From the NCBI GenBank assembly GCA_002159065.1, contig LZRV01000052.1:1-64000 (forward strand): a stretch of DNA of 64,000 nt, read 5' to 3'. The position numbers and the translations under genes were made by a program. Positions 25,434 to 25,462 of this stretch are shown piece by piece; position 1 is the stretch's first letter; every line of letters begins with the position of its first letter. The notes under the pieces were generated by a model, which was not told the origin of the DNA, did no database searches, and saw only the letters and a program-made list of their open reading frames with translations. The stretch comes from Paenibacillaceae bacterium ZCTH02-B3. GTDB taxonomy: Bacteria > Bacillota > Bacilli > Paenibacillales > Paenibacillaceae.

Positions 25434-25462
25434 AGTATACCAAACATATGTTCGCGTGTAAA
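25434..25462 (-). promoter_or_regulatory. LexA/DinR-boxed promoter of the SplB-like gene
   Basis: Read on the minus strand: -35 TTTACA, 17-bp spacer, -10 TATACT. The spacer contains CGAACATATGTTTG (25441-25454), one base off the Gram-positive SOS box CGAAC-N4-GTTCG. The layout is the same as the promoter at 48594-48622. Confidence 0.85.

Follow-up and report, generated by a model that had tools for sequence, protein, structure and literature searches.

LexA control of splB, a gene coding for a radical SAM protein of the SplB superfamily, has been predicted in alpha- and beta-proteobacteria (PMC3323433), and SplB-like proteins have been found in SOS-linked operons (PMC3765255). One of the two loci described here resembles these proteobacterial genes in coding for an SplB-superfamily radical SAM protein and in carrying an upstream LexA site. 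It differs from them in belonging to Bacillota, in having a GAAC-N4-GTTC box that is found before 20 of 20 orthologs, and in encoding a conserved clamp-type motif at the C-terminus of the protein. For the other locus, a two-gene HD/YwgA cassette, the closest described proteins are EF1143 (2o6i), 2hek and SAMHD1, which have HD active-site motifs in common with its HD protein, and the C-terminal domain of DarG (7yk3), the antitoxin of DarTG, which shares both sequence and predicted fold with its YwgA-like protein. DarG neutralises DarT through this C-terminal domain. Unlike DarTG, the cassette has neither a macrodomain nor DarT, and the partner is the HD enzyme. Compared with housekeeping YwfO proteins, its HD protein belongs to a separate clade, is accompanied by a DarG-like partner gene and is preceded here by an SOS box.

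Both loci lie in a 64,000-bp window, the whole stretch of DNA that was analysed, from Paenibacillaceae bacterium ZCTH02-B3 (contig LZRV01000052.1). The window also contains a c-di-AMP riboswitch (ydaO/yuaA leader) at 12936-13149 on the plus strand, with a score of 46.8 bits for a cut-off of 38.

LexA boxes in two core promoters

The promoter of the SplB-like gene (25434-25462, minus strand) is made up of a −35 element TTTACA (25457-25462), a 17-bp spacer and a −10 element TATACT (25434-25439). In the promoter of the HD/YwgA cassette (48594-48622, minus strand), the same TTTACA (48617-48622) and TATACT (48594-48599) elements are separated by a spacer of the same length. Read on the minus strand, the former is TTTACA-CGCGAACATATGTTTGG-TATACT (25462-25434) and the latter TTTACA-TGCGAACATACGTTTGG-TATACT (48622-48594), with 27 of 29 bases in common and two mismatches. 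Each spacer harbours a LexA box, CGAACATATGTTTG at 25441-25454 for the SplB-like gene and CGAACATACGTTTG at 48601-48614 for the cassette (both minus strand), so placed that it overlaps the core promoter, as expected for members of the LexA (DinR) regulon. The pattern CGAACATANGTTTG has two exact occurrences in the window without any mismatch, 0.86 being expected even with two mismatches allowed. The likeness reported in an earlier, sequence-only reading of this DNA is therefore real, and the genes behind the two promoters are unrelated as it had stated, one coding for an SplB-superfamily radical SAM protein and the others for an HD and YwgA-like pair.

That reading had also proposed a LexA matrix built from these boxes and those before recA, lexA and uvrB, and held that a lack of matching boxes before recA and lexA would speak against SOS control. 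The genome (3.12 Mb in 187 contigs, 97.7% complete) codes for one clear LexA protein and one RecA. Boxes CGAACAAATGTTTG and AGAACAAATGTTTG are located in the gap between lexA and a divergent gene that, from its sequence and position, looks like yneA, and box CGAACCTATGTTCG lies upstream of recA, which removes the objection; no recognisable LexA box was found in the 400 bases upstream of uvrB (C18, locus L171). Across the genome, 15 matches with at most two mismatches from CGAACATATGTTTG were detected, compared to 1 for a reversed-pattern control. At locus L003, the lexA-type box CGAACAAATGTTTG is found a second time (1501-1514 of the locus, C50:13299-13312 of the genome); with a GAACGAATGTTCCC box nearby, it precedes a possible 77-aa open frame (1208-1441, minus strand) that has no Pfam match and is a candidate for a further SOS gene.

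Conservation of the box was analyzed in 60 related genomes of the same family and order, which provided 19 orthologs of the SplB-like gene (44-71% identity) in addition to the window gene. A GAAC-N4-GTTC box with at least 7 of 8 matching positions is present upstream of all 20, perfect in 14, and never more than 75 nt from the start on which the scan was based, compared to 4.25% (at least 7/8) and 0.05% (perfect) for dinucleotide shuffles of these upstream regions. None of ten SplB-superfamily paralogs (32-42% identity) has the box upstream. Perfect GAAC-N4-GTTC sites precede three distant Bacillota homologues from outside the order, and GTTC-N7-GTTC, the LexA site of alpha-proteobacteria, is found upstream of 4 of 5 alpha-proteobacterial homologues. 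That some 4% of shuffled upstream regions yield a 7/8 match could be taken to mean that both boxes are coincidental. The contrast between orthologs and paralogs statistically refutes this explanation for the SplB-like gene, and the two exact matches at core-promoter positions, together with the lexA and recA boxes of the same genome, make it extremely improbable. The common DNA-damage control put forward in the sequence-only reading is thus strongly supported by the lexA and recA boxes, by the full set of SplB-like orthologs and by the recurrence of boxes before related cassettes (see below), and this conservation makes LexA control likely.

The other origin suggested for the likeness, a promoter moved as a unit, is not supported. 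Duplication or transposition of a single SOS promoter onto the other gene would account for the extent of the identity, including departures from consensus common to both copies (TTTACA, TATACT, GTTTG). However, the likeness ends at 29 bp, beyond which the flanks of the two promoters have no similarity, and the promoter on the yneA side of the lexA divergon, TTGAAA-CAAACATTTGTTCGTGT-TATACT, shows a comparable layout with its box in a 17-bp spacer. Moreover, the nearest Clostridial cassettes, L090 and L091, already have boxes upstream, and the promoter of L090 is of similar build, its box being flanked by a −35-like element and a −10 element. Unrelated flanks and promoters of like build before yneA and L090 make a moved promoter unnecessary, and we consider it very unlikely; judged from these sequences, the near identity is one of three consensus elements at one spacing rather than that of a transposed promoter.

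The SplB-like protein and its C-terminus

The SplB-like gene (24396-25385, minus strand) codes for a 329-aa radical SAM protein of the SplB superfamily with a CX3CX2C cluster motif, whose cysteines 34, 38 and 41 are invariant in 19 aligned orthologs. The protein scores 67.7 bits with the general radical SAM model PF04055 (cut-off of 29.5) and falls below the cut-off of every other curated family. Among family models it is matched best, across the radical SAM domain, by Rv2578c (NF038135; 239 bits for a cut-off of 430) and PA0069 (NF033668; 208 bits for a cut-off of 360), and by sequence the protein is a sister subfamily of these two families and not a member as they are defined. Spore photoproduct lyase (TIGR04070; PDB 4fhc) shares the radical SAM superfamily and gives a weak local match. 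A canonical spore photoproduct lyase is ruled out by the TIGR04070 score of 20.6 bits for a cut-off of 400, so that the name SplB-like, taken over from the sequence-only reading, is appropriate at the superfamily level only. No canonical spore photoproduct lyase was found in this genome, comparison of the SplB-like protein with PDB sequences returned nothing convincing, and a literature search on Rv2578c with LexA retrieved no papers.

The protein terminates in a sliding-clamp-binding-type motif, QLTLF (codons at 24399-24413, minus strand). Its orthologs end in QLTLF, QLSFxF, QMSLPI or similar strings behind a variable linker, and such strings have the form of bacterial sliding-clamp-binding motifs like those of MutS, DinB and Hda. 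A clamp-type C-terminus was observed in 20 of 20 orthologs and 6 of 6 proteobacterial homologues versus 1 of 474 controls (genes neighbouring the HD/YwgA cassettes); the motif is short, and because the pattern was drawn up after the sequences had been seen, this contrast counts as evidence while its exact value does not. The motif is a poor fit to two actinobacterial homologues (QESLF and QEPLF), and the pattern is absent from one weakly similar homologue in Bacillota. A 291-aa radical SAM paralog without a LexA box (L057, genome G032) ends in QLQLF, the sole such case among the ten paralogs. A literature search for radical SAM proteins with a clamp-binding motif retrieved no papers, and the clamp motif of the SplB-like family appears to be undescribed in the searchable literature.

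The HD/YwgA cassette

The cassette consists of a gene coding for a 427-aa HD-domain dNTP triphosphohydrolase-like protein (47291-48574, minus strand) and a gene coding for a 185-aa YwgA-like partner (46737-47294, minus strand), which overlap by 4 bp. Its GC content is 45-48% (44.7% for the HD gene) against a reference value of 62.7%. About 60 further genomes, most of them from Clostridia, contain cassettes of this type, and in the tree the window cassette falls among Clostridial ones (identities of 73% and 71%), away from those of Paenibacillaceae and from housekeeping YwfO. This position and the low GC content point to probable horizontal acquisition of the cassette. In nearly all non-housekeeping loci of the approximately 60 genomes, the YwgA-like gene is directly downstream of the HD gene, and no recurrent third gene was found at the loci read.

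Of 73 HD genes, 20 have a LexA-type box upstream (13 perfect), with about 3 expected from mononucleotide shuffles. Relatives with a box include L090, L091, L061, L062, L141 and L149; boxes are present throughout the three-member clade of the window cassette, which includes its two nearest relatives, and before all four Paenibacillaceae-type cassettes (L061 and L062 among them). Most other Clostridial cassettes have no box, and since about 70% of the loci elsewhere lack a recognisable GAAC-N4-GTTC, SOS control is not an inherent property of the cassette. Searches of phage, plasmid and viral-contig sequences yielded no more than weak relatives of the HD protein; the phage and plasmid matches are at most about 38% identical and thus give no sign of carriage of close HD relatives by such elements. 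Housekeeping HD dNTPases homologous to the cassette protein are encoded by nearly all relatives. Their YwfO-type loci have neither a box nor a YwgA-like partner nearby, which indicates that the pairing of HD with YwgA is peculiar to the cassette.

The HD protein matches 2hek (6e-58), EF1143 (2o6i, 5e-42) and SAMHD1 with its active-site motifs kept. The active-site residues align with those of 2hek and 2o6i and are invariant in three aligned cassettes, and the residues at positions corresponding to the active and GTP sites of SAMHD1 are also retained. With the dGTPase model TIGR01353 the protein scores 31.9 bits for a cut-off of 152. The nucleotide hydrolase of the sequence-only reading is therefore soundly argued from active-site conservation with SAMHD1 and EF1143, as a predicted activity.

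Both the sequence and the predicted fold of the YwgA-like protein show homology to the C-terminal antitoxin domain of DarG. The protein matches this domain in sequence at 6e-6 and also matches DarG in an NCBIfam model (below cut-off) and a PADLOC model. Its AlphaFold model has a pLDDT of 91, and DarG 7yk3 (1.7e-6) is the only PDB entry below an E-value of 0.001. The cassette is not a DarTG system, as the C-terminal domain alone is matched and the neighbour is an HD gene. Assignment to the SocA/Panacea antitoxins (PF13274) was likewise rejected (23.0 bits for a cut-off of 25.7). Given the neutralising use that DarG makes of the domain, we propose that the YwgA-like protein restrains or regulates the HD enzyme. 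No papers were retrieved on YwgA with DarG, a paper on promiscuous Panacea antitoxins makes no mention of YwgA, DarG or phosphohydrolases, and a literature search on ywgA and ywfO returned nothing that seemed relevant from titles and abstracts. An SOS-linked HD/DarG-like cassette appears to be undescribed in the searchable literature.

A joint model and its alternatives

We consider it quite probable that these observations belong together in one model, which combines LexA-repressed promoters whose likeness does not stem from transposition, an SplB-superfamily enzyme that docks on the clamp, and an acquired HD dNTPase with a DarG-like restrainer. LexA dimers on the 14-bp box between the −35 and −10 elements would block RNA polymerase, and RecA filaments would trigger LexA self-cleavage, so that both operons would be turned on. 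The first operon would supply a radical SAM enzyme of the SplB superfamily, probably acting in direct repair of DNA lesions or in DNA modification, that may dock on the DnaN sliding clamp via its C-terminal QLTLF past the variable linker. The second, an acquired cassette, would supply a putative dNTP triphosphohydrolase of the SAMHD1/EF1143 type and a partner resembling the DarG C-terminal domain, which probably binds the HD enzyme and restrains or regulates it. SOS induction of the pair may then lower or edit dNTP pools.

What the cassette does for the cell can be interpreted in different ways. It could be the part of the SOS response that sanitises dNTP pools or slows replication, with the YwgA-like protein as an activator or a DNA sensor and not an antitoxin, an interpretation to which we give slightly less than even likelihood. 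SOS boxes in several clades, homology to the housekeeping HD dNTPases of nearly all relatives and retention of the residues that correspond to the active and GTP sites of SAMHD1 are consistent with such a role; the patchy distribution argues against it, as does the fact that housekeeping YwfO-type loci have no box and no partner, which makes the partnership cassette-specific. The same patchiness, together with transfer, is compatible with a toxin-antitoxin or abortive-defence system in which the HD enzyme removes dNTPs and is neutralised by the DarG-like partner, the balance between the two being shifted by SOS or phage damage. The antitoxin-domain fold of the YwgA-like protein, the tight pairing of two genes without further partners and a weak match to a dGTPase defence model also point in this direction. 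However, no neighbour family recurs at the loci read, hence no sign of defence islands, and nothing indicates that close relatives are carried by plasmids or phages; we regard this interpretation as possible and rather doubtful.

The broadest reading of the joint model is one that we advance tentatively. The cassette may represent an undescribed and widespread pair in which a DarG-type fold restrains a SAMHD1-like dNTPase and which has been wired to the SOS response in several lineages, and the LexA-controlled SplB-like family may be a repair enzyme tethered by the clamp to the replication fork. This so far unassigned radical SAM family gains a specific prediction, that it is damage-induced and clamp-bound, and would therefore probably act on DNA at forks. 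For DarG-type antitoxin domains, the dNTPase would be a partner of a second kind, one that is controlled by damage in several lineages, and the dNTPase-DarG pairing, if true, would tie nucleotide depletion to the SOS response.
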